DNA from: Stigmatella aurantiaca DW4/3-1
Lineage (GTDB): Bacteria > Myxococcota > Myxococcia > Myxococcales > Myxococcaceae
Assembly: GCF_000165485.1 (NCBI RefSeq)
Contig: NC_014623.1
Span: 5,598,893-5,662,892, forward strand
Reading direction: 5' to 3'
DNA length: 64,000 bases
Shown here piece by piece: positions 37,612-54,680 of the stretch. The translations under genes were made by a program, and so were the position numbers. Each line of letters begins with the position of its first letter. The stretch's first letter is position 1. Below the pieces are notes generated by a model. It was not told the DNA's origin, ran no database searches, and saw only the letters and a list, made by a program, of their open reading frames with translations.

Positions 37612-38720
37612 TGAACGCCCCCCTCCAGGCACTGCTGCTGCTTCTGATCAGCTCCACCTGTCCAGCGCTCGCGCTCGCGCAAGGCACGGCACGGGTTCCC
37701 GCGCCAGACCCGCAAGCCCTCCGTATCCAGGTGCCCGACGTCCCCTTGGTGAATCAGCACGGCCAGCAGGTGCGGCTGTGGTCTGACCTCGTCCGTGGCC
37801 AGACCGTGGCCATCAACTTCATCTTCACCCGCTGCAAGACCATCTGTTCGCCAATGACGGCCACCTTGGCACGCGTGCAAAAGGAGCTGGGACCCGACAG
37901 CCCGGTGCGCTTCATCTCCATCACCCTGGACGTGGCCAATGACACCCCCGAGCGCCTCGCCCACTTCGCCGAGCCCTTCGCCCCCGGACCCCACTGGTCC
38001 TTCCTCACCGGCGAGCCGGCCCTGGTGAAGGAGGCCCTCGTGGCCCTGGGCGGCTACACCCCGGACAAGGAAGCCCACCGGCCCCTCGTGCTCGTGGGCA
38101 ACGCCACGGCGGACAAGTGGCTGCGCGTGGACGGCCTTGGCTCGGCCTCTTCCCTCCTCGAGGCCATTCGCGAGGTTCGCGCCGCCTCCGCGCCCCCCGC
38201 GGAACTCACCCCCACGTCCCCTTCCGCCCAGGATGCCGCCGCCGCGCGCTATTTCACCAACACGGAGCTGGTGGACCAGCATGGCAAGACGCACCGCTTC
38301 TACGAGGACCTCATCCGCGGCCGCAAAGTCCTCATCAACTTCGCCTTCACCGCGTGCAAGGGCGTCTGCTCTCCCATGACCAAGCACCTCGCCGAGGTCC
38401 AGAAGGCGCTGGGCGGCCGCGTGGGCAAGGACACCACCATGATCACCCTTTCCGTGGACCCCGCCAACGACACCCCAGCGACGCTGGCCCACTTCACGCA
38501 GAAGTTCGGCGTGGGGCCTGGCTGGTATTTCCTCACCGGCGCCCCCGAGAACATCTCCCTCGTGCTCAAGAAGCTCGGGGGCTACACGGATGATCCCAAC
38601 ACCCACAGCTCCACCCTGCTCATCGGAGATGCCACCACCGGAATGTGGGTGAAAGCCCCCGCCATGTCGAACACCAGCAACCTCGTGTACGCCGTAGAGC
38701 ACCTCAATGATCCCCGGTAG
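37608..38720 (+). CDS. tandem SCO1/SenC copper-chaperone protein
   Basis: 370 aa; the ATG at 37608 overlaps the stop of the propeller gene. Signal peptide (LLLLLISSTCPALALAQG). Two complete SCO domains in one chain: CKTIC (Cys76, Cys80) with His157, and CKGVC (Cys250, Cys254) with His333. The CxxxC plus distal His is the SCO copper site that delivers copper to oxidases and acts as a thiol reductant. One SCO domain per chain is the usual form. A SCO-like gene (mnxC) also accompanies MnxG in Bacillus, which supports the reading of the locus. Ends inside the start of the next gene (14-base overlap). Confidence 0.93.
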   Translation: MMNAPLQALLLLLISSTCPALALAQGTARVPAPDPQALRIQVPDVPLVNQHGQQVRLWSDLVRGQTVAINFIFTRCKTICSPMTATLARVQKELGPDSPVRFISITLDVANDTPERLAHFAEPFAPGPHWSFLTGEPALVKEALVALGGYTPDKEAHRPLVLVGNATADKWLRVDGLGSASSLLEAIREVRAASAPPAELTPTSPSAQDAAAARYFTNTELVDQHGKTHRFYEDLIRGRKVLINFAFTACKGVCSPMTKHLAEVQKALGGRVGKDTTMITLSVDPANDTPATLAHFTQKFGVGPGWYFLTGAPENISLVLKKLGGYTDDPNTHSSTLLIGDATTGMWVKAPAMSNTSNLVYAVEHLNDPR

Positions 38721-40305
38721 CCAGGGCGCGCGAGGCGGAACGCTCCGCGGGGTGCTTCTGGGTATGGTGGTGCTGCTGGGAGGAGCTTGCCGCCAGGAAG
38801 TCCCCTCCACCACGCGGGATCTGGAGGCGGCCAAGAGGGGACGGAGTCTCTTCCAGCGAGGCACGAGCGCCCGGGACACCCCCCTGGTGGGCCAGCTCGG
38901 GCCCGAGCAGATCGACCTGAGCGGCTCCGTGGCCGCATGCGCGCGCTGTCACACGCCGTCCGGCCGCGGAAGTGAGGAAGGTGGCGTGGAGGTGCCGGAC
39001 ATCCGCCCCGAGGCCCTGCGCCATCCACGTGCGCGCACCTCGGTGGACGTGGAGGATCGATCCCGCCCCGCGTATGGAAGGGACACCCTGCTGCGAGCCA
39101 TCACCGAGGGCCGTTCGGCCAGCGGCCGCCCCTTGGGGGTGGCGATGCCGCGCTACGTGCTCGCCCCGGCCGAGCGCGAGGAGCTGCTCGCCTATCTGGA
39201 GACGCTGGGCGAGACACCCGACCCCGGCATCACCCCTACCACCCTCACGGTGGGCGCGGCGCTGCCCCTCTCGGGGCGGTTGGGCGAGGCCGGACAGGAC
39301 GTGGAGCAAGTGCTGCGAGCCGCCTTCGAGGAGGTCAACGCGGAGGGAGGCATCTATCGGCGGCGCTTGGAGTTGGTGGTAGAGGACGATTCGGCGCCTG
39401 TGGGGCCGGATGCCACCACACGGTTGCTGGAACGCGGGGTGCTCGCCCTGGTGGGCAGTCTGCGCAAGGGCGTGCCCACCTCGGACACACTGCTGCGGCG
39501 CGAGGGGGTCGCACTCGTGCTCCCCACCGCGCTCACGGAAGAGGCCAGAGGCAGCGACAGCCCCATCTTCTTCCTCTATCCCGAGGAACCCATCCAGGCC
39601 CGCCTGGTGGTGCAGCACCTGGCGCGAGAAAACGAGTCCCAGCTGCGCCGCCAGCCCCTGGCAGTGGTGCGAACGGACGATGCCGCGGGCCTCGCCTGGG
39701 CCCGCGCGGCGCGCGAAGAGGCCCTGCGGCGCGAGCTTCATCCTCCCACCGAGTTCCCTCTTTCAGAGGGAGCCGCCGGCCTCGAAGCACTCCAGAACCT
39801 GCGCCAAGCACCACCTCCAGCCCTGCTCTACGCGGGCCCTCCAGAGGGGCTCAAGTCACTGGTCGAAATGTTGGAGTCTTGGAAGCTGGCGACGCGCGTG
39901 TACGCCCCGGCCCGTTTGGCCAGCCCCTCGGCGGTAACGGGTGGCCCGCTCCCCCTCTTCTTCGTCTACCCACCGGGAGTGGAGGCGCGCGAGGATCACC
40001 TGCGCGCCTTCACCGCCTTCCTCGAGCGTCACGGTCTGCGCCCGCGTCACACGGCCTTCCAGCTCGGCGCGTATGCGGCATCCCGTGTGCTGGTGGAGGC
40101 TTTGCGGCGCTCGGGCGCGGACGTGACTCGCGCGGACCTGATGCTTCACCTGGAGGCGCTTCGGGACTTCGACACGGGAGTGACTCCCCCGGTGACGTTC
40201 GGGGTGAACCGTCGCGTGGGCGTGCAGGGGGCCCAGTTGGTCCGCCTGGACGCGGCAAGTGGCCGGTGGGAGGCGGCCTCCCCCTGGATTCCCCTCTCCC
40301 CCTAA
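38707..40305 (+). CDS. cytochrome c fused to periplasmic-binding (type I) domain, lipoprotein-like
   Basis: 532 aa. Lipobox-like GGAC (Cys28). Residues about 40-170 form a c-type haem domain: CARCH (78-82) with candidate axial Met147 (VAMPRY). Residues about 180-530 form a Leu/Ile/Val-binding-type periplasmic fold (TLTVGAALPLSGRLGEAG, LALVGSLRKGVPTSD, FFLYPEEPIQARLVVQ, TAFQLGAYAASRVLVEAL). Combination of an electron carrier with a ligand-binding receptor in one chain is unusual. Fourth gene of the oxidase operon, overlapping the SCO gene, and converging on the sensor kinase with 1 base between the stops. Confidence 0.88.
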   Translation: MIPGSQGARGGTLRGVLLGMVVLLGGACRQEVPSTTRDLEAAKRGRSLFQRGTSARDTPLVGQLGPEQIDLSGSVAACARCHTPSGRGSEEGGVEVPDIRPEALRHPRARTSVDVEDRSRPAYGRDTLLRAITEGRSASGRPLGVAMPRYVLAPAEREELLAYLETLGETPDPGITPTTLTVGAALPLSGRLGEAGQDVEQVLRAAFEEVNAEGGIYRRRLELVVEDDSAPVGPDATTRLLERGVLALVGSLRKGVPTSDTLLRREGVALVLPTALTEEARGSDSPIFFLYPEEPIQARLVVQHLARENESQLRRQPLAVVRTDDAAGLAWARAAREEALRRELHPPTEFPLSEGAAGLEALQNLRQAPPPALLYAGPPEGLKSLVEMLESWKLATRVYAPARLASPSAVTGGPLPLFFVYPPGVEAREDHLRAFTAFLERHGLRPRHTAFQLGAYAASRVLVEALRRSGADVTRADLMLHLEALRDFDTGVTPPVTFGVNRRVGVQGAQLVRLDAASGRWEAASPWIPLSP

Positions 40306-44685: not shown

Positions 44686-45720
44686 GTGATCCAGGCCACG
44701 GGCACCTACCTGTTGACAATACCGCTCCCCCTTGAGGAGGGAGGGCTGCTGGACGGCACCCAGGTGGCGTACGACACCTACGGTGAACCGTCTGGCGAGA
44801 ACTCGGTGGTACTGCTGCATGATCTCGCCCAATCCCACCGCGCGCTGGGACCGGCGGAGGCCTCCGCGTACCAGGCCTCGGGCTGGGGCCGGGAGCTGAT
44901 CGGCGAGCGCCGCCCGCTGGATCCCTCCAGCCTGCACATCCTCTCCCCGAACCTGCTCGGCAGCCCTTTTGGCACCACCTCTCCCCTCACGGAGGACCCC
45001 TACACCGGCCAGCCCCTGGGACCCTCGCTGCCCCTGCTGACGGTGGTGGACATGGCGCGCGTCCTGTCCGCGTTCATGCGCGGGGTGGGGCTCAAGCGGG
45101 TCCGGGCTTTGATCGGCGTGGGCCTGGGAGGCATGGTCGCCCTGCGGCTCGCGGCCTTGTTTCCCGAACTCACCGCCGGGGTGGTGGCCATTGGCGCGTC
45201 ACGGGCGCTCCCGGAGCCGCTGCGGGACCGGCTCGGCATGTTCAACCAGCTGCTCTGGATGGACCCGGAGTTCCGCGAGGGGTTCTACAGCCCGGACGCG
45301 GGCCCGCGCCGGACGCTGCGCAAGCTGCGGCTGGAGTACCTGCGGCTGCTCTATGGACGCGAGCTGCTCACCGCCCGGTACCGGGACATCACCACCGCCG
45401 AGCAAGCGCTGGAGGCCGACGCCGACGCCTTCTCGGCCACCTTCGACGCGAACGCCTGGTCCCTGCTGTGCACCGCCTACGCGGGGTGCGACCTGACGGA
45501 GTTCCTACCGAAGATCCGGGCCCAGGTGCTGCTCATCACCGGCGCCTCGGACATGCTCGCCCCGCCTGCCCGCGTCCGAGAGACGTACCACCTGCTGAGC
45601 GCGTCGGGCGTCCAGGCGCGCTACCACGAGTTGCAAGGCGCCGGAGACCACGGGGCCCTGCTCACCGAGACCCGGCGCATGCACGGCCCCGTGCGGGACT
45701 TCTTGCGCCGGTTGCGCTGA
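44686..45720 (+). CDS. MetX-like alpha/beta hydrolase lacking the catalytic serine
   Basis: 344 aa from a GTG at 44686. Overall layout is that of homoserine O-acetyltransferase: VAYDTYGEPSGENSVVLLHD, LSPNLLGSPFGTTSP, VVDMARVLSAFMRGVGLKRV, then the nucleophile elbow. There the expected G-x-S-x-G-G reads GVGLGGM, with Gly146 in place of Ser (codon GGC). The acid (GASDMLAPP) and the C-terminal His (GDHGALL) remain. So the acyl-enzyme route is impossible unless another residue serves. The gene is intact otherwise; the start lacks a good ribosome site. Could be a pseudoenzyme or a changed function. Confidence 0.8.
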   Translation: MIQATGTYLLTIPLPLEEGGLLDGTQVAYDTYGEPSGENSVVLLHDLAQSHRALGPAEASAYQASGWGRELIGERRPLDPSSLHILSPNLLGSPFGTTSPLTEDPYTGQPLGPSLPLLTVVDMARVLSAFMRGVGLKRVRALIGVGLGGMVALRLAALFPELTAGVVAIGASRALPEPLRDRLGMFNQLLWMDPEFREGFYSPDAGPRRTLRKLRLEYLRLLYGRELLTARYRDITTAEQALEADADAFSATFDANAWSLLCTAYAGCDLTEFLPKIRAQVLLITGASDMLAPPARVRETYHLLSASGVQARYHELQGAGDHGALLTETRRMHGPVRDFLRRLR

Positions 45721-46353
45721 CTACCGCGAGGGGGACACCGCGAGCCGCGCCCGGAGCGCGCCCACCAGCATCCCAATGGCGATGTCGTTGTTTCCCCCGT
45801 GCGGGATGATGATGTCCGCGAAGTGCTTGGACGGCTCGACGAAGCCCATGTGCATGGGGCGCACGTGCCGCAGGTACTGGCCCACCACGTGATCGAAGTC
45901 CCGGCCGCGGTCCTTGATGTCCCGGGTGAGGCGCCGGAGGATGCGGAGGTCATCGTCGGCATCGACGTAGATCTTCACGTCCATCTGGTCCCGCACTTCC
46001 TTCATGTGCAGCACGAGGATGCCCTCGATGAGGATGATGTCCCCCGGCTCCACGAGGACGGTGTTCGCCTGGCGGGAGGACGTCCGGAAGTCGTAGGCGG
46101 GCTTCTGGATGGCCTGCCCGGACTTCAGCTGCTTCAGGTGATGAACGAGCAGATCCGTATCGAAGGCATCGGGGTGATCGAAGTTCACCTGCCGCCGGTC
46201 CTCCAGCGGCATGTCCTTCAGGTCACGGTAGTACGAGTCTTGATCGATGAAGGCGACACGGCAGTCGGCCAGCGCCTCGCGAACCTTCCGGGCGACGGTC
46301 GTCTTGCCGGACGCGGTTCCGCCCGCGATTCCAACGACGAGGGGTGACGACAT
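45721..46353 (-). CDS. udk: uridine kinase
   Basis: Phosphorylates uridine and cytidine in pyrimidine salvage. 210 aa from the ATG at 46353, close to E. coli Udk (213). P-loop GGTASGKTT near residue 11, DQDSYYRDL, NFDHPDAFD, YDFRTSSR and the lid RRLTRDIKDRGR. A longer open frame upstream adds an unrelated Arg/Gly-rich tail and was rejected. It follows the DUF692 gene by 65 bases on the same strand and ends at the stop of the convergent MetX-like gene. Confidence 0.95.
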   Translation of the reverse strand: MSSPLVVGIAGGTASGKTTVARKVREALADCRVAFIDQDSYYRDLKDMPLEDRRQVNFDHPDAFDTDLLVHHLKQLKSGQAIQKPAYDFRTSSRQANTVLVEPGDIILIEGILVLHMKEVRDQMDVKIYVDADDDLRILRRLTRDIKDRGRDFDHVVGQYLRHVRPMHMGFVEPSKHFADIIIPHGGNNDIAIGMLVGALRARLAVSPSR

Positions 46354-46418
46354 GGTCGGCCACCTACCGCAGCGGCACGGCCAGCGCAAGGCTGCGTCTG
46401 AAGCTGGACCATCCCGGC

Positions 46419-48092
46419 TTAGCCTCCCCGCCGCGCCAGTCCACGGCCCAGGGCCTCGGCAAGCCCCTCGGGGGAAAGGGAGGCCTCGGGGACGGGCCCC
46501 GAGGCCAGGGTTCGAAGCAGCGCAAGGAGGGAGGCAGGCGCCGTCTGCACGTCCCATCGCCCTGCCCTCCGGCGAACGGCGAAGCGCCAGGGCCGCAGCG
46601 TCACGCGCCGCGCCGTCTGGGCCAGGGACTCCAAGCCGCTCAACTCCAGCAACTCACACGCCCACGCACGCCCCGTGAGATGCCGCCGCAACGCCCGGGC
46701 CGTGTAGACGACTTCAGAGAGGTCCGCCGGGAAGACGCCCACCCAGGTGTCTGCCGCGAGCCCCACCTCGCCGGGTCCCGGAGGGGCGTGGGGCCGCTGC
46801 GCCAGGGAGGGCAGGAACACCTCGAAGGAGAGCGCCGCCGAGCACCCTTCGTCCGGCTGAGCCCGCAGGCGCCGCCGGGCAAACGCCAGGAACGCACGGT
46901 CCAGGGAGCGGCCCTCGCCCAGGAACAGCTCGCGAAACTCCGGAGACGCCGTGAAGGCCCGCAACTCGTCGCGCGTTCCGGCCATCAGCAAGCGCGTCAA
47001 AGGGAAAGCCCGATCGAGCTGCTCGGCCACCACCGCCAGGCGGAAGTCCGTCTCCGCCCGGCTGCCCTCCGGGTCGTCACCCGGCTCGGGCGGCCGGGCG
47101 CCGTAGCCCAGTTCGAACAGCTCCCAGGGCCTGCTCCCGTTGGGCGGCGGCGGAACCTGCACCTCCCGGGGGGTGAGGCGCAGGGGCGGACGAGGGTCTG
47201 CTGGGATCCACTTGCGCAGGCGTTGCAAGGTCCGCTCGGCCACCTCGGGCGGGTGCCCATCCCCCTCGAAGGTGACCGCACGCAAGGAGGTGCAGCGCGA
47301 CAGGAGGGTCTCCAGCATCGCGAACAGCTCGTCACGCACCGGCTGGGTGTGGTCATCCACGTAAAAGCGGCGGTTCCCTCGGCGCGTCACCACGCCCCCG
47401 GCGAGGTGGAGCTCGATGACCTGCTCGAACGGGAAGCCGTCCCACCCTGCCTCCAGGGGCAAGCCCGCGGAGAGCTGGTAGCTGAGCAAGTGCCCCACAT
47501 CGACGAGGAGCGGGAGCCCGGTGCGCGCATGCAGCCCAGCCATGAAGTCGAGCACGTGCATGTCTCCGCGCCGGGCAAAGACCGCGGGGTTCTCCAGCGC
47601 CAGCGGGCGGTTCAGCGCCGCCTGGACATGGAGGGCGTGCGCCACGCAGTCCTCCAGCCCCTCTGGCGTGAGCGGAGGCGGAATATAGAGGTAGCCCGGA
47701 AAGGGTTGGCCACCCGCGTGCCACCAGCCCACGTCATTGCCCACCCAGGCGCTGCCCACGGCCCGCGCGTGTGCTTCCAGCTCCGCCAGGGCCTGGGGGG
47801 TCTCCCGCTCGGGCCCGTAGAGATTGAGGTGTACCGGGTGGAAGAGCACCGGCACCTGCCCCAGGTTCCGGAGCATCTCGGGATACAGCGTGGCGTGCGC
47901 CTTCGTCTCCTCCAGCGACAGCGGAGCGCTGTACTCGACGAAGTCGAAGAGCCCGGGAGCATCTGCGAGCAGACGGTAGGGATGGGGCGGATCGCTGGCA
48001 TTCAAGTTGCTGCTCAACCCCAGCCCGCGCCACGGCAGCGTCCAAGCCTCCTGCGAACGCCCCTTCACCCCACTGCCTGTCGTCTCGCCCAT
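46419..48092 (-). CDS. DUF692/MNIO-family enzyme with long C-terminal extension
   Basis: 557 aa from the ATG at 48092 (a GTG at 48068 is an alternative). Residues 20-285 are the DUF692 TIM barrel of multinuclear non-haem iron oxidative enzymes (MbnB family): VLFHPVHLN (His85, His88), LALENPAVF (Glu167), LLVDVGHLL (Asp198, His201), VIELHLAGG (His229), VDDHTQP (Asp247, His248), VTFEGDG (Glu276). In known systems these act on Cys of a precursor peptide with a partner protein (DUF2063/MbnC). Here about 260 further residues follow (RLAVVAEQLDRAFPLTRLLM, SPEFRELFLGEG); they may be a fused partner. No precursor gene was spotted nearby. Confidence 0.85.
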   Translation of the reverse strand: MGETTGSGVKGRSQEAWTLPWRGLGLSSNLNASDPPHPYRLLADAPGLFDFVEYSAPLSLEETKAHATLYPEMLRNLGQVPVLFHPVHLNLYGPERETPQALAELEAHARAVGSAWVGNDVGWWHAGGQPFPGYLYIPPPLTPEGLEDCVAHALHVQAALNRPLALENPAVFARRGDMHVLDFMAGLHARTGLPLLVDVGHLLSYQLSAGLPLEAGWDGFPFEQVIELHLAGGVVTRRGNRRFYVDDHTQPVRDELFAMLETLLSRCTSLRAVTFEGDGHPPEVAERTLQRLRKWIPADPRPPLRLTPREVQVPPPPNGSRPWELFELGYGARPPEPGDDPEGSRAETDFRLAVVAEQLDRAFPLTRLLMAGTRDELRAFTASPEFRELFLGEGRSLDRAFLAFARRRLRAQPDEGCSAALSFEVFLPSLAQRPHAPPGPGEVGLAADTWVGVFPADLSEVVYTARALRRHLTGRAWACELLELSGLESLAQTARRVTLRPWRFAVRRRAGRWDVQTAPASLLALLRTLASGPVPEASLSPEGLAEALGRGLARRGG

Positions 48093-48103
48093 GTGACGCG
48101 GGG

Positions 48104-48838
48104 ATGCTACACCCGAAGCCCATGTTCCATCGCCAGGGCCCCACCTTTTTCGAGCTGGCCCACCAGTGCCTGTCCTCCGTCGAGCACGGGTATGATCTGC
48201 TCGCGCCCAAGTTCGATCACACGCCCTTCCGCACACCGGAGGTGGTGCTGAAGAAGGCCATGGAGCAAGTGGGCCCTCCGGGCGCCATCGCCCGGGCACT
48301 CGACGTGGGCTGCGGCACGGGGGCGGCGATGCGGCACCTGCGCCCCCTGTGCCGTCAGGAAGTGGTGGGGGTGGACTTGAGCCGCGGCATGCTGGAGGAG
48401 GCCCGCCGCCGCCAGGCGGATGCACCGGGGGAGGCCACCTTGACCTTCGTCCAGGGCAACGCGCTGGATCTGACCTACGAGGCGGAGTTCGACGCCGTGA
48501 CGAGCTTTGGCGCCTTCGGCCACATCCTGGAGGAGGATGAGCCTCGCCTGGTGCAACGCATCGCTCGAGCACTTCGTCCGGGGGGCCGCTTCATCTTTGT
48601 CTCGGCCCATCCCCCGTCGATGCTCAGCCCCGGGTACTGGCTGGCCCGGGGCTTCAACGCGGCGATGCACGTGCGCAATGCGCTCTTGCAGCCTCCGTTC
48701 GTCATGTACTACCTGACGTTCCTCGTGCCACGCGCCCGCGCGTTGCTGGAGGCGCAAGGCTTCGAGGTCGACGTGCGCGAGGGGCTGCTGCCCCGCCCCT
48801 TCCTCCGTTACCCGATCGTCGTCGCCACCCGGAAGTAA
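48104..48838 (+). CDS. SAM-dependent methyltransferase (class I)
   Basis: 244 aa from the ATG at 48104. Motif I ALDVGCGTGAAM (about residues 65-76), acidic loop VVGVDLSRGML, motif II FDAVTSFGAFGHI, motif III ALRPGGRFIFVSA: the ubiquinone/menaquinone-type Methyltransf_11 family. It opens only 11 bases from the divergent DUF692 start, so the promoters of both genes must overlap coding sequence or a start is misplaced (an internal ATG at 48122 is possible). Substrate unknown. Confidence 0.85.
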   Translation: MLHPKPMFHRQGPTFFELAHQCLSSVEHGYDLLAPKFDHTPFRTPEVVLKKAMEQVGPPGAIARALDVGCGTGAAMRHLRPLCRQEVVGVDLSRGMLEEARRRQADAPGEATLTFVQGNALDLTYEAEFDAVTSFGAFGHILEEDEPRLVQRIARALRPGGRFIFVSAHPPSMLSPGYWLARGFNAAMHVRNALLQPPFVMYYLTFLVPRARALLEAQGFEVDVREGLLPRPFLRYPIVVATRK

Positions 48839-48860
48839 GGTCTACGCCCGCCGGAGGACC

Positions 48861-50090
48861 TCAGTCCGAGCGCATGGCCTCCACGGGATCCAACCGGGCC
48901 GCGCGCGCCGCGGGATAGATGCCGAAGATGAGCCCCACCCCGGAGCTCATCCCCAGCGACAGCGCCACGGCCCAGGGGGGCACCAACGTGGGAAAGCCCA
49001 GCATCCACCGTCCCAGGAACGCCAGGCCGAACCCCAGCCCCACGCCGATGGCGCCTCCCACGAGCGACAGCATCACCGCCTCGGTGGCGAACTGCCCGAG
49101 GATGCGCCGCTTGCGCGCCCCGAGCGCCTTGCGGATGCCGATCTCCTTTGTCCGCTCCGTCACCGACACCAGCATGATGTTCAGAATGCCGATGCCCCCC
49201 ACCACCAGGGACAGCAGGCACACGCCGAACCCCGCGATGGTGATGACCTGCGAGAGCTGGTTGAAGGTCTGCGTCATCGACTCATTCGTGTGCAGCTCGA
49301 AGTTGTTCTCCGCGAGAGGCCCCACGTCGCGCCGCCGGCGCAGCAAGGTCTCCACCTCGTCCTTCGCCTTGTTCACCAGGTCCGCATCATGCGCCTGGAT
49401 GTTGAGATCCAGGGAGCGCGCCTTCCCATAGAGCTGCTGGAAGGACCGCAGGGGCATGATGACGAGGTTGTCCATGCTCATCATGCCCAGGAAGCTGCCG
49501 CGCCGCTGCAGCACGCCGATGATGGTGAAGGGCCGTCCCTTCACGCGAATCTCATGGCCGATCGGATTCTGGCCAGGCAGCAGCGCGTCCGCCACGTCCA
49601 GGCCCACCACCGCCACGTGGCGCCCATCCACGGCCTCGGACTCCCCGAAGAACCGTCCGGACGCCACCGTGATGCCGCTGGTCTCCAGGTACTCGGGCGT
49701 GGCCCCGAAGACGCGCACCGATGGACGCGTCTCCTGGGTGGCCGTCACGATCTTCTGGCCTCCCTCGTCGTCGGAGGCCGCCACCGACTTCACCGAAGGG
49801 CACGACTGCTCGATGGCGCGGGCATCCTCCAGGGTGAAGCTCGGGCGCTTGGCGTACATCTGCCAGTTGAAGCGGCCAAAGCCCATGGGCCACTTCGTCG
49901 CCATGAAGGTATTGGCGCCGAGCTGGGACAGATCCTTGTTCACCTTGATGCGCAGCCCCTCGATGAGGGCCATCATCGTGATGACCGTGGTCACGCCAAT
50001 GACGATCCCCAGCAGCGTCAGCAGCGAGCGCAGCGGGTTCCCCAGGAACGTGCCAAAGGCCAGACGCAGGTTATCGAGAAAGGCTCGCAT
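48861..50090 (-). CDS. MacB-type ABC transporter permease (second)
   Basis: 409 aa, FtsX/MacB permease fold: one N-terminal helix (NPLRSLLTLLGIVIGVTTVITM), a large periplasmic MacB domain (about 50-280) and three C-terminal helices ending with the FtsX signature (ERTKEIGIRKALGARKRRIL, FGIYPAARAARLDPVEAMR). It lies 9 bases after the first permease gene. Together with the ATPase, adaptor and TolC-like genes it should form a tripartite exporter. Two distinct permeases rather than one MacB homodimer suggest a heterodimeric channel. Confidence 0.92.
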   Translation of the reverse strand: MRAFLDNLRLAFGTFLGNPLRSLLTLLGIVIGVTTVITMMALIEGLRIKVNKDLSQLGANTFMATKWPMGFGRFNWQMYAKRPSFTLEDARAIEQSCPSVKSVAASDDEGGQKIVTATQETRPSVRVFGATPEYLETSGITVASGRFFGESEAVDGRHVAVVGLDVADALLPGQNPIGHEIRVKGRPFTIIGVLQRRGSFLGMMSMDNLVIMPLRSFQQLYGKARSLDLNIQAHDADLVNKAKDEVETLLRRRRDVGPLAENNFELHTNESMTQTFNQLSQVITIAGFGVCLLSLVVGGIGILNIMLVSVTERTKEIGIRKALGARKRRILGQFATEAVMLSLVGGAIGVGLGFGLAFLGRWMLGFPTLVPPWAVALSLGMSSGVGLIFGIYPAARAARLDPVEAMRSD

Positions 50091-50099
50091 GGGGTCGGT

Positions 50100-51326
50100 C
50101 TACTCGTAGCGCAGCGCTTCCACGGGATCGAGGTTGGCCGCCCGGGCCGCGGGCCAGATGCCAAACAGCAGGCCCACCACCGCCGCGAAGCCCACCCCCG
50201 CCACCACGGTGATCAGCTGAACATCCGCCGCCAAGGGGGTGATGAGGGAGACCACCTTCGCCGTGCCCAGACCCACCACGGTGCCCAGTGCGCCCCCCAC
50301 GGCGGAGACGGCCGAGGCCTCCATCAGGAACTGCACCACGATGGTGCGCTTGCGGGCCCCCAATGCCCGGCGGATGCCAATCTCCCGTGTCCGCTCTCGC
50401 ACGGACACCAGCATGATGTTCATGATGCCGATGCCCCCCACCAGCAAGGTGATGAAACCCACGCCCACCGCCACGCCGTAGAGCGCTCCGGTGAGCTGCT
50501 GATAGGTGTTGGCGAGCATCTCGGGGCGGTTGATGGAGAAATCGTCTGGGGCTTCCGGAGGGGTGTTCCGGACGCGCCTCAGAATGCCCACGAGCTGATC
50601 CTCGGCGCGATTCACGTCCTCGGTGCTCCGCACCGAGAGGGCCATGCTGAACGCGCGCTGCTTGCCAAACAGGGCGTAGAACGTCTTGAAGGGCACCATC
50701 ACGGTCAGATCCTGGTTGTTGTCCAGCATCATGCCCTTGCGCGACAGCGTGCCCACCACCTGGAAGGGACGCCCGTCAATCCGGACCGTCTGTCCCACGG
50801 GGCTGACCCCCGGAAAGAGCCCCGAGGCCACGTCCGCCCCGAGGACGGCCACGGCGCGGGTCGTCTCGTTGTCCGCCTCCGTCAGGAAACGGCCCAAGAC
50901 CACTTCGAAACCGGAGATGGACAAGTACTCGTTCGTCACCCCGTTGATGTTCACGGTGGACAGCTGCTCCTCGCCGTGGGCCACATCCGCCGCGCGCCCC
51001 ACCACCGGCGAGATCGCGGTGAGGTACGTGGACTGGGCGCGGATCTGTTCCAGCTGCGCGAGGGTGAAGTTCTTGCGGTTGCGGTACAGCCACCAGTCCC
51101 CTCCCATCACCCAGGGGAACTTGGAGATGAAGAGGTTGTTGGAGCCGATGGTGGCCAGCTGTCGATCGAAGGACGCGTTGAGCCCCTGGATGATGCCGAC
51201 GATGGCCAACAGGGTGGCCACGCCGATGCCGATGCCGATCGTCGTGAGCACCGTGCGCATCCGGTTGGCCTTCAGCGAGTAGAGCGCGATGCGCCCTCCC
51301 TCCAACACGTCCACTCGGAAGCTCAT
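50100..51326 (-). CDS. MacB-type ABC transporter permease (first)
   Basis: 408 aa, same family as the next permease. N-terminal helix [20 protein letters not shown], periplasmic MacB core (about 50-275), C-terminal FtsX signature ([39 protein letters not shown]). The start overlaps the stop of the ATPase gene by 4 bases (ATGA). Confidence 0.92.
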
Positions 51327-52087
51327 AACCCTCCCGCCCCCTGTGCCGAGGGGATCACGAGATTCGTGAGCGCCACCTCACGGCCGGGCCCGTCCGCCAC
51401 CACCTCACCATCGCTGAGGCGCACCGCCCGTGGGCAGCGCGCCGCCAGCTTGGGCTCGTGGGTGACGAGCACCAGGGTATGCCCCGCCCGGTGGAGTTCC
51501 TCGAAGAGCCGGACAATCTCCTCCCCCGTGGCCGAGTCCAGGTTTCCCGTGGGCTCGTCCGCCAGGAGCATGGAGGGCTCGGCCACCAGTGCCCGGGCAA
51601 TGGCCACGCGCTGGCGCTGGCCACCGGACAGCTCGTTGGGCCGGTGGTGCATGCGGTGGCCCAGTTGCACCTTCTCCAGGGCCGCCTTCGCCCGCTCACG
51701 GCGCTCGCGTGCGGCCACCCCCCGGTACACCAGCGGCAGCTCCACGTTGGAGAGCGCCGTCTCCCGGGGCAGCAGCTGGAAGGTCTGGAAGATGAAGCCG
51801 ATCTCCTTGTTCCGGATGAGCGCCAGCTCGTCGTCGTTCATCCGCGCCACATCCTTGCCATTGAGGATGTAGTTGCCGCTGGAGGGGGTATCCAGGCAGC
51901 CCAGCACGTTCATCAGCGTCGTCTTGCCCGAGCCAGACTGGCCGATGATGGCCACCCACTCTCCCCGGCGGATGCCGAAGGAGACGCCTCGCAGGGCGCG
52001 CACTTCCTCACCACCCACGTTGAAAACGCGGGTGATGTTCACCACTTCGATGAGCCGGTTCTCACCGGTCCCGGCGCCGTGACTCAC
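51323..52087 (-). CDS. ABC transporter ATPase (MacB/LolD type)
   Basis: 254 aa from a GTG at 52087. Walker [11 protein letters not shown]-loop FIFQTFQLL, signature [15 protein letters not shown], Walker [14 protein letters not shown]-loop VTHEPK. The FtsX/MacB/LolD subfamily is indicated by [24 protein letters not shown] overlap with the membrane-fusion gene and ATGA overlap with the first permease make this a coupled operon. Confidence 0.95.
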
Positions 52088-53349
52088 GACTTGTGCCCAC
52101 CCTTCATCCCAGGTCCCCCTTGCACGGGTTCACTGACGATGTCCCCATGGTTGAGATCCTTGGAGAGTGTGCGGTAGGGCCCTTCCACCACCCGGTCCCC
52201 ATCCCGCAGGCCCTCGAGGATCTCCAGCTCCGTGTCGGAGGCGATTCCCGTGCGCACGCGGCGCACCTGCGCCTTGTTGTCCGTGTCCACCACGAAGACG
52301 ACCTTGGCCAGCGACTCCGTCTTGCGCCGGGCCTGCAACCCTCCGCCCTCCACGGGCGCCTGGTAATCCGGCAGGCTCTTCTCCGAGCGCACCGTCACCG
52401 CCTGGATGGGCACCAGCAACGTTTCATTGTGCGTCTCCGCGGCGATGCGGACTTCCGCGCTCATGCCCGGCAAGACGCCCGCGGGCCGCGCGTCGAGGGC
52501 CACGGTGATGGGAAACGTCGTCACCTCCGCCTCCGTGCCCTCGTTCTTGATGAGCGCCTTCTGGGCAATCTCCACCACCGAACCCTGGAAGGATTCTCCA
52601 TCCAGGGCGTCCAGGGCCACCTCCGCGGGCTGGCCCGGCTTCAGGTGCACCACCTCGTGCTCGCCCACCTCGATCTTCACCTCCATGGCGTTCAGGGCGG
52701 CGATGATCATCACGATGTCGTCGGACAGGTCCGAGCCACGGACGCGCTCGCCCACCTCACGGGACAGTTCGATGACGTTGCCGTCGATGGGCGAGACGAG
52801 CGTCGTCTGCGCCAGGTTGCTCGCCGCCTCCTCGTAGACGGCGGACGCCTGGGCCAGACGCTGCCGGGCCGCCGCCTGCTGCGCATCGGCCGTGTCCCTG
52901 GCCGCTTGCGCCTGCTCCAGCTCGGCGCCCGAGGCCAGCCCCTTCTCCACCAGGCTCTTCACGCGCGCGTACTCGGCATGGGTGCGCTGGGCTTCCACCT
53001 CGGAGACCTGGACCTCGGCCTTGGAGGCGCTCTGGGACGCCAGCGCCTGCTTCACCGTCGCCTCGAACCGCCGGCGGTCGATGCGCCCCAGCACCTGCCC
53101 CTTCTTCACCGGATCCCCGTCCTTCACCAGCAGCTCCACGAGATCTCCGGAGAGGCTGGAGGAGATCTTCACGGTGGTGGCCGCCTGCACCTTGCCAGCC
53201 CCCGTGATGGTCCGGGTGATGGGCCCCTTGTGGACCTTGGCCAGCTGGACCTCCACGGACGGGGGAGGCCGATCCCGGAGGCCTCCCGCCGTGATGCCCG
53301 CCGCCCCGAGGAACAGAACGCCAGCGATGACTGCCTTCCACCACTTCAT
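52084..53349 (-). CDS. membrane-fusion (adaptor) protein, MacA/HlyD type
   Basis: 421 aa. N-terminal anchor ([18 protein letters not shown]), barrel-sandwich hybrid halves ([39 protein letters not shown]), an alpha hairpin (about 100-190, rich in Ala, Gln, Glu) that should reach the TolC-like protein, and a membrane-proximal beta domain. Starts with an ATGA overlap after the TolC-like gene. Confidence 0.93.
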
Positions 53350-54680
53350 TTCAACTCTCCCGGACTCAGGGTGCCCATGGCCCGCATCAAGCCAAAGCGG
53401 GCAGTCTCTACGTTGACTCGGTTCTCCAGCAGCGTCAGCTCGGCTTGCGTGAGCTTGAGCTGCGCGTCGCGCACCTCCAGCGTGGAGCCCGCGCCCGCCT
53501 TGAAACGCTCCTCGGCCAGCGCCAGGCTCCGCGCGGCGGTCTCCCGGTTCTCCGAGGCAAGCTGCGCGGCGGAGATCTGCGTCACCAGGAGCTGGAGGGT
53601 GCGCTGCACCTCGGCTTCCAGCTCACGCTCGGTTTGCGCCAGGTTCAGCTCCGAGGTGCGCAGCGTTGCCCGGGCCTGGTTCAGCTGAGCATCGGTCGAC
53701 AATCCGGTGAAGAGATCCCACTGCAGCACCACGGAGCCCGTCACCGTGTTCTGCAGGCGCGGCGTGGCAAAGACAGCGTCTGCTTCGGGACCTCGGCGCA
53801 AGTAGGCCCCCTGCGCCAGCAGACGGGGCCAGTAGCCCGCGCTGGCGACCTCTTTGCCCAGCGAAGCGGCGCGCACCTGTTGCTGAAGCGCCTGGAGCAA
53901 GGGCCTGCGCTGGCGGGCTTCGGCGAGCGCCAGCTCGAATGAAGGTGTCGGCAACGGGGGCTGCAAGAGGCTCTCGGGCGCCTGGGCTTCCAGGGGCTCG
54001 GCACCGGGCCGGGCCAGCCACACCGCGAGCTGCCCCCTGTCCTGGGCGAGCTGCGCCTGGCGCAGCAGCAGATTGATGCGGTCATTGCCGAGGTTCACCC
54101 GCGCGGACAGCTCCTCGCCCCGGCCCACCCGCCCCGCCTCGAAGAGCGCCAAGGCCCGCTCGAGCTGCTCCTCGCTGCGCTGCACGGTGGCCTCCAGCAC
54201 CCGGATGGTGGCCTGCGTCCGGTAGAGCGCGAAGAAACGGTTGATGGCCTCCAGCTCGGAAGCATCCTCCTGCTCACGGGCCTGGCCTTGCGCCGCCTCG
54301 AAGACCGCGCCACTCTGCTCGAGCTGCTTCCAACGGACCCGGTCATAGATGAGCTGCGAGAGGTTCAACGAGATCTCGAAGTCGCCGCTGTCCCTGGGGC
54401 TGGTTTCGCCCGCTCTCTGCTCGAAGGTGCCCTCGCCGGTCTGGACAAGGACGATGCCCCGCTCCCGCCCCACGTAGGTGCCGCCCGCCGAGGTGGAGAA
54501 GGACAGCTGCGGCAACAACGGCGCACGCGCCAACCGGACATCCTGCTCCGAGCGCGTCGCGTCCAGGAGCGACAGCAACGCCTGGGTGTTCTTCCGTCCT
54601 TGGGCCCGGACTTCCTCCAGAGAGATGGGGGTCGCGGCGGGAACAGCCGCCATCCATGCGGCGAGGAGAAGCGCGCTCAC
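53346..54680 (-). CDS. TolC-family outer membrane efflux protein
   Basis: 444 aa from a GTG at 54680 (GGTGG upstream; GTGA overlap with the preceding gene). Signal peptide (SALLLAAWMAAVPAATP). Two outer-membrane-efflux repeats of coiled-coil helices (about 25-210, 230-430); internal repeat ends EELSARVNLGNDRINLLLRQ and STLEVRDAQLKLTQAELTLL. The longer frame upstream belongs to another gene's region and was rejected. Outer-membrane channel of the exporter. Confidence 0.92.
   Translation of the reverse strand: MSALLLAAWMAAVPAATPISLEEVRAQGRKNTQALLSLLDATRSEQDVRLARAPLLPQLSFSTSAGGTYVGRERGIVLVQTGEGTFEQRAGETSPRDSGDFEISLNLSQLIYDRVRWKQLEQSGAVFEAAQGQAREQEDASELEAINRFFALYRTQATIRVLEATVQRSEEQLERALALFEAGRVGRGEELSARVNLGNDRINLLLRQAQLAQDRGQLAVWLARPGAEPLEAQAPESLLQPPLPTPSFELALAEARQRRPLLQALQQQVRAASLGKEVASAGYWPRLLAQGAYLRRGPEADAVFATPRLQNTVTGSVVLQWDLFTGLSTDAQLNQARATLRTSELNLAQTERELEAEVQRTLQLLVTQISAAQLASENRETAARSLALAEERFKAGAGSTLEVRDAQLKLTQAELTLLENRVNVETARFGLMRAMGTLSPGELK

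Follow-up and report, generated by a model that had tools for sequence, protein, structure and literature searches.

Can an enzyme of the MNIO (DUF692) superfamily carry its partner protein on its own chain and, if so, what kind of side chain would such an enzyme oxidize? Most characterized MNIOs need a separate partner, and that of HvfB binds weakly, according to the part of PMC13419390 available. The question is raised by a reverse-strand gene of Stigmatella aurantiaca DW4/3-1 located in the window, by which we mean the whole 64,000-nucleotide stretch of DNA analyzed here. The gene and the parts of its product are arranged as follows.

46419..48092, (-) strand: fused MNIO-partner gene, 557 aa (open reading frame, PF05114 and ortholog conservation)
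47205..48041, (-) strand: MNIO TIM-barrel domain, residues 18-296 (PF05114 at 4.6e-30, model and Foldseek)
46797..47129, (-) strand: helical DUF2063-like half of the putative fused partner, residues 322-432 (models and structure matches)
46428..46769, (-) strand: C-terminal strand/helix half of the putative fused partner, residues 442-555, probably occupying the place of the RRE in TglI and NGO1945

The reading frame stays open upstream to 48572, so the start codon is uncertain. A preliminary description of the locus had recognized a DUF692 (MNIO) enzyme with a C-terminal extension following straight after the catalytic domain, and both points hold. Residues 45-286 match PF05114 with an E-value of 4.6e-30 and 105.2 bits, well above the curated Pfam cut-off of 25, which places the protein in the MNIO superfamily. 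The NCBIfam models BufB, ApyH, HvfB, ChrH and MbnB all match far under their cut-offs (the best, BufB, at 91.9 bits against 310 and HvfB at 43.3 bits against 360), such that no equivalog cut-off is reached. The full-length model, built from 22 sequences comprising the window protein and its orthologs, has a mean pLDDT of 86.7 and a pTM of 0.83. Its top Foldseek matches are the TglH chains 8hci_B and 8hi7_B (4.7e-12 and 5.0e-12), followed by 7fc0, 3bww, 7tcr, 7dz9 and 7tcw. Ranks 1-9 are occupied by MNIO chains only (TglH, MbnB and 3bww; E-values from 4.7e-12 to 1.4e-9), in agreement with a TIM barrel. The MNIO domain is followed by approximately 270 residues that have no Pfam match, with a linker of about 25 residues separating the barrel from the region spanning residues ~322-555.

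The fusion is present in 23 of 59 related genomes, including the window's own, at 47-100% identity, and the C-terminal part is conserved together with the barrel across these orthologs; therefore, the architecture is not a chance event. The divergent orthologs L050-L054 lack the last ~40-60 residues of the C-terminal half. Searching the phylum with a profile of the barrel detected one locus in each of 76 of 195 Myxococcota genomes (E-value of 6.9e-124 or lower), 75 of which belong to the same family as the window and one to a neighbouring family. A profile of the extension matches at the same place in 75 of the 76, although the matches in G107 and G109 cross a TGA; in the 76th genome (G030) the end of the contig cuts the locus and only the start of the extension is visible. 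No stand-alone extension protein was detected in the 195 genomes, except for three weak matches of 26-48 residues (E-values of 0.003-0.004). Scanning genome contigs with a single sequence returned nothing, and an alignment-based scan of named genomes identified 37 loci, distributed among Archangium, Hyalangium, Myxococcus (including Myxococcus xanthus strain AM003, L154), Pyxidicoccus, Corallococcus and Citreicoccus, with the rest coming from Myxococcaceae or Deltaproteobacteria MAGs and one record labelled Comamonas. The latter (L143, BNCN01000004.1), titled Comamonas sp. KCTC 72670, contains the Myxococcaceae locus, downstream of which the genes follow in the same order, and is probably mislabelled.

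Given this conservation, what is the extension? Residues 308-557 (250 residues) were modelled alone, with a pLDDT of 87.3, and compared with known structures. The three best Foldseek matches are NGO1945 (3dee, E-value 0.0031, probability 1.00) and TglI (8hci_A, 0.0041, 1.00; 8hi7_A, 0.0085, 0.99), all with E-values above 0.001 and with TM-scores of 0.38-0.44; the remainder of the 50 matches listed have probabilities of 0.15 or less, MbnC (7dz9_C) being the highest among them. Alignment with VIA-align gave a Z-score of 10.5 to TglI over 207 of 250 residues (rmsd 7.3), covering residues 9-250 of the whole-extension model, 8.1 to NGO1945 over 164 residues (rmsd 6.1), and 6.0 to MbnC over 83 residues (rmsd 3.4), followed by 4.4 for the next entry and lower values for the rest. 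Z-scores under ~13 may reflect a common arrangement in helical folds, and these scores gain weight as indicators of kinship because the top four entries are, without exception, MNIO partners.

Profile comparison points in the same direction. The extension aligns with a profile of four separate partners of Asp/His-type MNIOs, a class that is defined below, over 182 columns and with one of three DUF2063-type partners over 174 columns; in neither case did any of 100 column shuffles score as high, and both alignments are collinear and reach near the C-termini, at hhalign probabilities of only 3.5 and 4.1%. A control pairing with an unrelated open reading frame gave P 0.74. Single-sequence comparisons were not convincingly above shuffles, whether made with other extensions (54 of 100 shuffles as high for L057, 65 for L174, 2 for L028 and 16 for L124) or with separate partners (46 of 100 for L117 and 38 for L122). 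Given the low hhalign probabilities and these six unconvincing tests, the case for the extension as a partner rests mainly on structure. No Pfam family matches the extension of the window protein, and a PDB profile search was without a match. Five Pfam families are matched by any of the 22 members, and DUF2063 (PF09836) is not among them; TonB_C matches one of the 22 (0.00045), and the four further matches (0.091-0.22) are each confined to a single member as well.

Partners that lack the DUF2063 signature and yet are structurally related to NGO1945 and TglI have been termed PME-type 2, as defined in the accessible part of PMC12452194. The predicted fold and the lack of a Pfam DUF2063 signature assign the extension to this type, whereas the PF09836 signature of PME-type 1 is absent. 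Our models therefore support the view that the extension is an MNIO partner fold of PME-type 2. This is in keeping with the proposal made in the preliminary description that a fused partner would give a single-chain enzyme: structural comparison ranks TglI, NGO1945 and MbnC first, and the profile outscored all 100 shuffles against each of two sets of separate partners. The same description had named two observations that would count against it, an unrelated fold and a lack of association with precursors. The first was not seen; the second was, as no such association was found.

If the extension is a partner, the next question is what chemistry the barrel could support. Nine ligand-like positions, H85, D120, E167, D198, H201, H229, D246, H248 and E276, are invariant in 22 of 22 full-length members. 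Their codons, and the corresponding residues of PbsC, are listed below.

47838..47840, (-) strand: His85, iron-ligand position, invariant; PbsC His97
47733..47735, (-) strand: Asp120, which is His in TglH, MbnB and 3bww (alignment); PbsC Asp133
47592..47594, (-) strand: Glu167, iron-ligand position, invariant; PbsC Glu178
47499..47501, (-) strand: Asp198, iron-ligand position, invariant; PbsC Asp213
47490..47492, (-) strand: His201, which is Asn in TglH, MbnB and 3bww (alignment); PbsC His216
47406..47408, (-) strand: His229, iron-ligand position, invariant; PbsC His247
47355..47357, (-) strand: Asp246, iron-ligand position, invariant; PbsC Asp260
47349..47351, (-) strand: His248, iron-ligand position, invariant; PbsC His262
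47265..47267, (-) strand: Glu276, iron-ligand position, invariant; PbsC Glu290

The full iron-ligand set reported previously was thus correct in that all nine positions are filled, but not in kind. The His/Asn pair of the cysteine-oxidizing MNIOs (TglH, MbnB and HvfB/BufB) is missing and is replaced by Asp120 and His201. A canonical set is ruled out by the alignment with TglH, MbnB and 3bww and by a survey of 61 MNIOs. These were in part hand-picked and are not a random sample: 29 MNIO matches, minus L134 and L136, which repeat L027 and L028, were supplemented by hand with 8 of the 21 other orthologs of the fused family, 20 listed places and 5 of 25 listed plasmid matches (from 311 records). 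The His/Asn pair was found in 37 and the Asp/His pair in 24, 13 of which are the fused family, with no mixed pair, and the other seven ligand positions are identical throughout save for L128, which is degenerate, and L028, which is masked. A tree was built without L028, whose barrel is half masked; in it, the two types fell on opposite sides of a single branch (SH-aLRT 100), and the 13 fused sequences formed one clade (SH-aLRT 97); this is a quick tree of 60 rows with some long branches, in which both ligand columns were kept.

The Asp/His set is that of PbsC, for which an AlphaFold 3 model places His97/Asp133/Glu178, His216/Asp260/His262 and Asp213/His247/Glu290 at the irons, and which together with PbsD hydroxylates Phe and Tyr (PMC12257519, in the part available). 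The window protein has the same H/D/E, H/D/H and D/H/E set, the PbsC set itself being an AlphaFold 3 prediction. Since the nine residues are those of PbsC, we predict a hydroxylase-type MNIO that acts on a non-Cys substrate encoded elsewhere, PbsC being the one enzyme of known chemistry that ties the Asp/His set to hydroxylation. Taken together, we favour, with a probability of roughly 0.6, a natural single-chain MNIO with its own partner and PbsC-type irons that oxidizes a non-Cys side chain of a substrate encoded elsewhere. The invariance of the ligands also bears on whether the protein is an enzyme at all. Catalytically dead MNIOs that titrate or regulate another partner do exist, as described in the accessible part of PMC13060819, but the example reported there, PesX, is without iron-binding residues, whereas all nine positions are retained here in 22 of 22 members and the window protein has a partner of its own; a PesX-like role is thus highly improbable.

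For the favoured single-chain hydroxylase, comparison with TglHI, MbnBC, HvfBC and PbsCD suggests how the parts might work together. Residues ~18-296 would form the iron-dependent oxidase barrel, and residues ~322-555 would act as its partner on the same chain. The helical DUF2063-like half would pack on the barrel, as in TglHI-type complexes, while the RRE-like half would bind part of the substrate peptide. Two to three iron atoms could be bound through the PbsC-type ligands, with the iron activating O2, and a non-Cys side chain, perhaps aromatic by analogy with PbsC only, might then be hydroxylated or otherwise oxidized. The fusion would fix a 1:1 stoichiometry, the aim of an engineered HvfB-HvfC fusion.

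Parallels with characterized systems extend to each part of the protein. PbsC-PbsD, of the biphenomycin-like RiPPs, shares the nine predicted ligands with the same identities and order and similar spacing, and its partner has an RRE, to which the C-terminal half of the extension may correspond. However, PbsC and PbsD are separate proteins, encoded beside precursors with an FRF motif and a B12 radical SAM enzyme (PMC12257519, available part), whereas the surroundings of the window gene show no precursor motif of the FHAFRF/YHxYxY type, and the scan of seven neighbours gave no radical SAM match. TglHI, which forms 3-thiaglutamate, shares the barrel fold through TglH and provides, in TglI, the best partner-fold match of the extension, but it consists of two proteins, is of the His/Asn type and targets a C-terminal Cys (PMC12452194, in part). 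HvfBC and the bufferin pair BufBC also have the partner gene after the MNIO gene. Engineered into a single chain, HvfBC is functional and highly active, HvfB requiring its partner for the active iron state (PMC13419390, in part); in contrast, the natural proteins are separate, the partner carries a DUF2063 signature and the Cys-rich precursor has a signal peptide. HvfB furthermore keeps the Asn (N175), and 3bww, a relative that is 72% identical to it, has the His/Asn pair. Finally, MovX from Vibrio is a natural MNIO whose own chain includes a winged-helix/RRE domain at the C-terminus (PMC12452194, PMC13419390), but in the available parts of these sources it is described with that domain only and not with a whole DUF2063-like plus RRE partner, and it acts on Asn. 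The literature searched included PMC10214503, PMC9016710, PMC10635010, PMC13174530, PMC12636315, PMC12710340 and PMC12141560. Within the accessible parts of this literature, which consists mainly of open papers and is therefore weak evidence on this point, neither a natural fusion of an MNIO with a whole partner nor the split between Asp/His and His/Asn types was described.

Could the fused enzyme instead oxidize cysteine, as in bufferin, oxazolin or methanobactin biosynthesis, with a Cys-containing precursor elsewhere in the genome? Several observations favour this. BufB is the best of the NCBIfam models, albeit at 91.9 bits, far under its cut-off. DoxX genes are known from bufferin operons, and a DoxX-like gene lies divergent from the fused MNIO at three loci of one genus (L054:7552-8064, L130:6954-7358 and L132:6871-7275), of which the named twins cluster together. 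A second MNIO fusion, of 627 aa, is found in the window's own genome (L057:7050-9027, at ~5.215 Mb on contig C1), and a 66-residue open reading frame with a Cys-rich end (CISCACGSGCLCGC) adjoins it. Against this, TglH, MbnB and the HvfB-like 3bww all carry His/Asn while the fused family carries Asp/His, and HvfB needs Asn175, Asp242 and His244, with replacement of Asn175 by Ala or Ser abolishing activity (PMC13419390, available part). The second fusion is itself of the His/Asn type, and the DoxX-like genes are limited to the one genus, the L130 copy scoring 23.3 bits, just below the Pfam cut-off of 23.6 (Pfam was run on L130 only). A filtered scan, outlined below, also revealed no Cys-rich open reading frame close to the window gene. 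Cysteine oxidation by the same fusion is therefore distinctly unlikely.

The second fusion resembles that of the window in having an MNIO followed by a partner-like region, in which residues 456-619 match NCBIfam ApyI at 5.0e-9, under its cut-off, but it differs in its ligand pair, in its adjacent Cys-rich open reading frame and in an extension that shows no match to that of the window protein in the single-sequence comparison above. A glycosyltransferase with a PqqD-like domain and another glycosyltransferase-like open reading frame are located near L057, which looks like a RiPP cluster.

Consistent with the preliminary description, no Cys-rich precursor-like sequence was found at 36-60 kb of the window among those open reading frames of 25-130 aa whose codon composition satisfied a filter; ten of these have 2-4 Cys and were dismissed by eye. 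With a ligand set of the PbsC kind, one would not expect the substrate to be a Cys-rich precursor, and the absence of such a precursor near the window gene fits the predicted non-Cys substrate. The [FY]Hx[FY]x[FY] motif of PbsA-type precursors was likewise absent from all open reading frames with 20-150 aa in the 36-60 kb region of the window and in 22 ortholog loci (3332 open reading frames from 31 sources). A looser aromatic pattern matched three open reading frames of the window, and single FPFR matches occurred in L040 and L055, all of which were taken as chance; no PbsA-like or FPFR open reading frame was found near the window gene in the motif scan.

The lack of both kinds of precursor raises the possibility that the protein does not modify peptides and is instead an iron-dependent small-molecule oxidase with a structural or regulatory C-terminal domain. 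The gene is single-copy and widely conserved, as might be expected for a physiological role; a Pfam scan of seven neighbouring genes in the window revealed no recognized RiPP-modifying enzyme; and NGO1945 was originally taken for a DNA-binding protein (PMC2954202, in part). However, the partners for which there are tests, TglI, MbnC, HvfC and PbsD, bind precursors or are needed for the modification (PMC13419390, PMC9016710 and PMC12257519, in the parts available), and the Asp/His relatives of the fused enzyme keep a separate downstream gene. We regard a small-molecule oxidase as unlikely. The separate gene was seen with the closest Asp/His MNIOs that stand alone, L117-L122 (294-325 residues), where in all six inspected it lies directly downstream on the same strand and encodes 215-303 residues with no Pfam match. 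A fusion would fix just this order of MNIO and then partner. Extensions also occur in other Asp/His MNIOs, namely L174, of 533 residues, from a Streptomyces europaeiscabiei plasmid, and the frames L028 and L124.

An exporter lies upstream of the fused gene on the same strand.

53346..54680, (-) strand: TolC-like outer membrane protein (PF02321)
52084..53349, (-) strand: membrane fusion protein of the HlyD/CusB type (PF16576, PF13437)
51323..52087, (-) strand: exporter ABC ATPase (PF00005)
50100..51326, (-) strand: MacB/FtsX permease 1 (PF12704, PF02687)
48861..50090, (-) strand: MacB/FtsX permease 2 (PF12704, PF02687)
48104..48838, (+) strand: methyltransferase gene (PF13649), inverted between the exporter and the MNIO gene

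The distance from the permease stop to the MNIO start is 768 bp in the window, and an inverted methyltransferase gene is also found between the exporter and the MNIO in L034-L036. The corresponding distance is 29, 3, 11, 13, 13 and -4 bp in L045, L050-L053 and L055, and in these six relatives the MNIO gene closes a MacB/TolC-type exporter operon, which gives a weak hint that the product may be exported. A permease is visible in the fetched stretch of 10 of 27 loci, on the same strand every time, and in ten other genomes a permease ortholog lies ~11-51 kb upstream, sharing contig and strand with the MNIO. The view that this operon is ancestral was rejected, as the tree and the loci show that the earliest-branching fused members, L129-L132 and L054, have no permease in the fetched stretch (which is short upstream for L129), and dependence of the exporter on the MNIO as its partner is weakened by the presence of the permease in 43 of 59 genomes compared with the fusion in 23 of 59. 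The exporter thus does not require the MNIO, nor is an ancestral origin of the operon implied. Scanning 45600-48900 for promoters and terminators gave results no better than shuffles. Elsewhere, a protein with NGLSLNGLSLNG repeats is encoded convergent with the fused MNIO gene, in the interval separating the latter from the uridine kinase gene (L041:6972-7994 and L138:1785-2810).

Both features of the window protein may be of use beyond this locus. An enzyme that is naturally a single chain lends itself to structural, EPR and turnover studies, as was already seen with the engineered HvfBC fusion, and the gene is present in Myxococcus xanthus, a species amenable to laboratory work. The chemistry of the family, which has ~14,000 members, has hitherto been unpredictable, and the two-residue split (37, 24 and 0 in the sample of 61) provides a rule that can be tested; it is this rule that is most worth testing. 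Under it, the Cys-thiolate chemistry known from TglH, MbnB and HvfB would not be expected of Asp/His enzymes. Read at its widest, the His-to-Asp and Asn-to-His swap would separate MNIOs, at a deep level, into cysteine oxidases and side-chain hydroxylases, the fused, single-copy Myxococcaceae enzyme being one of the latter and acting on a conserved endogenous protein or an exported peptide, with a physiological role instead of a classical RiPP one; this is a tentative suggestion that we consider unlikely.

Additional observations were made at loci of Asp/His relatives. The cluster at L174 combines a YcaO-like protein, the MNIO with an extension, an acyl-protein synthase and an acyl-CoA reductase with a 53-residue open reading frame (L174:8261-8422, (+) strand, NZ_CP109155.1) that has four FPFR repeats, recalling the aromatic motifs of PbsA. 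At L117:5977-9594, (+) strand, a stand-alone Asp/His MNIO and its partner-like gene are closely followed by a Cys-rich protein of 568-575 aa, apparently secreted as judged by eye and with no Pfam match, which is a possible protein substrate. A gene with a heavy-metal-associated (HMA) domain is divergent from the stand-alone Asp/His MNIO at L118:5670-6861. Within the window itself, a 532-residue open reading frame at 38707-40305 on the (+) strand carries, as judged by eye, a CxxCH haem-type motif followed by a periplasmic substrate-binding-like domain.
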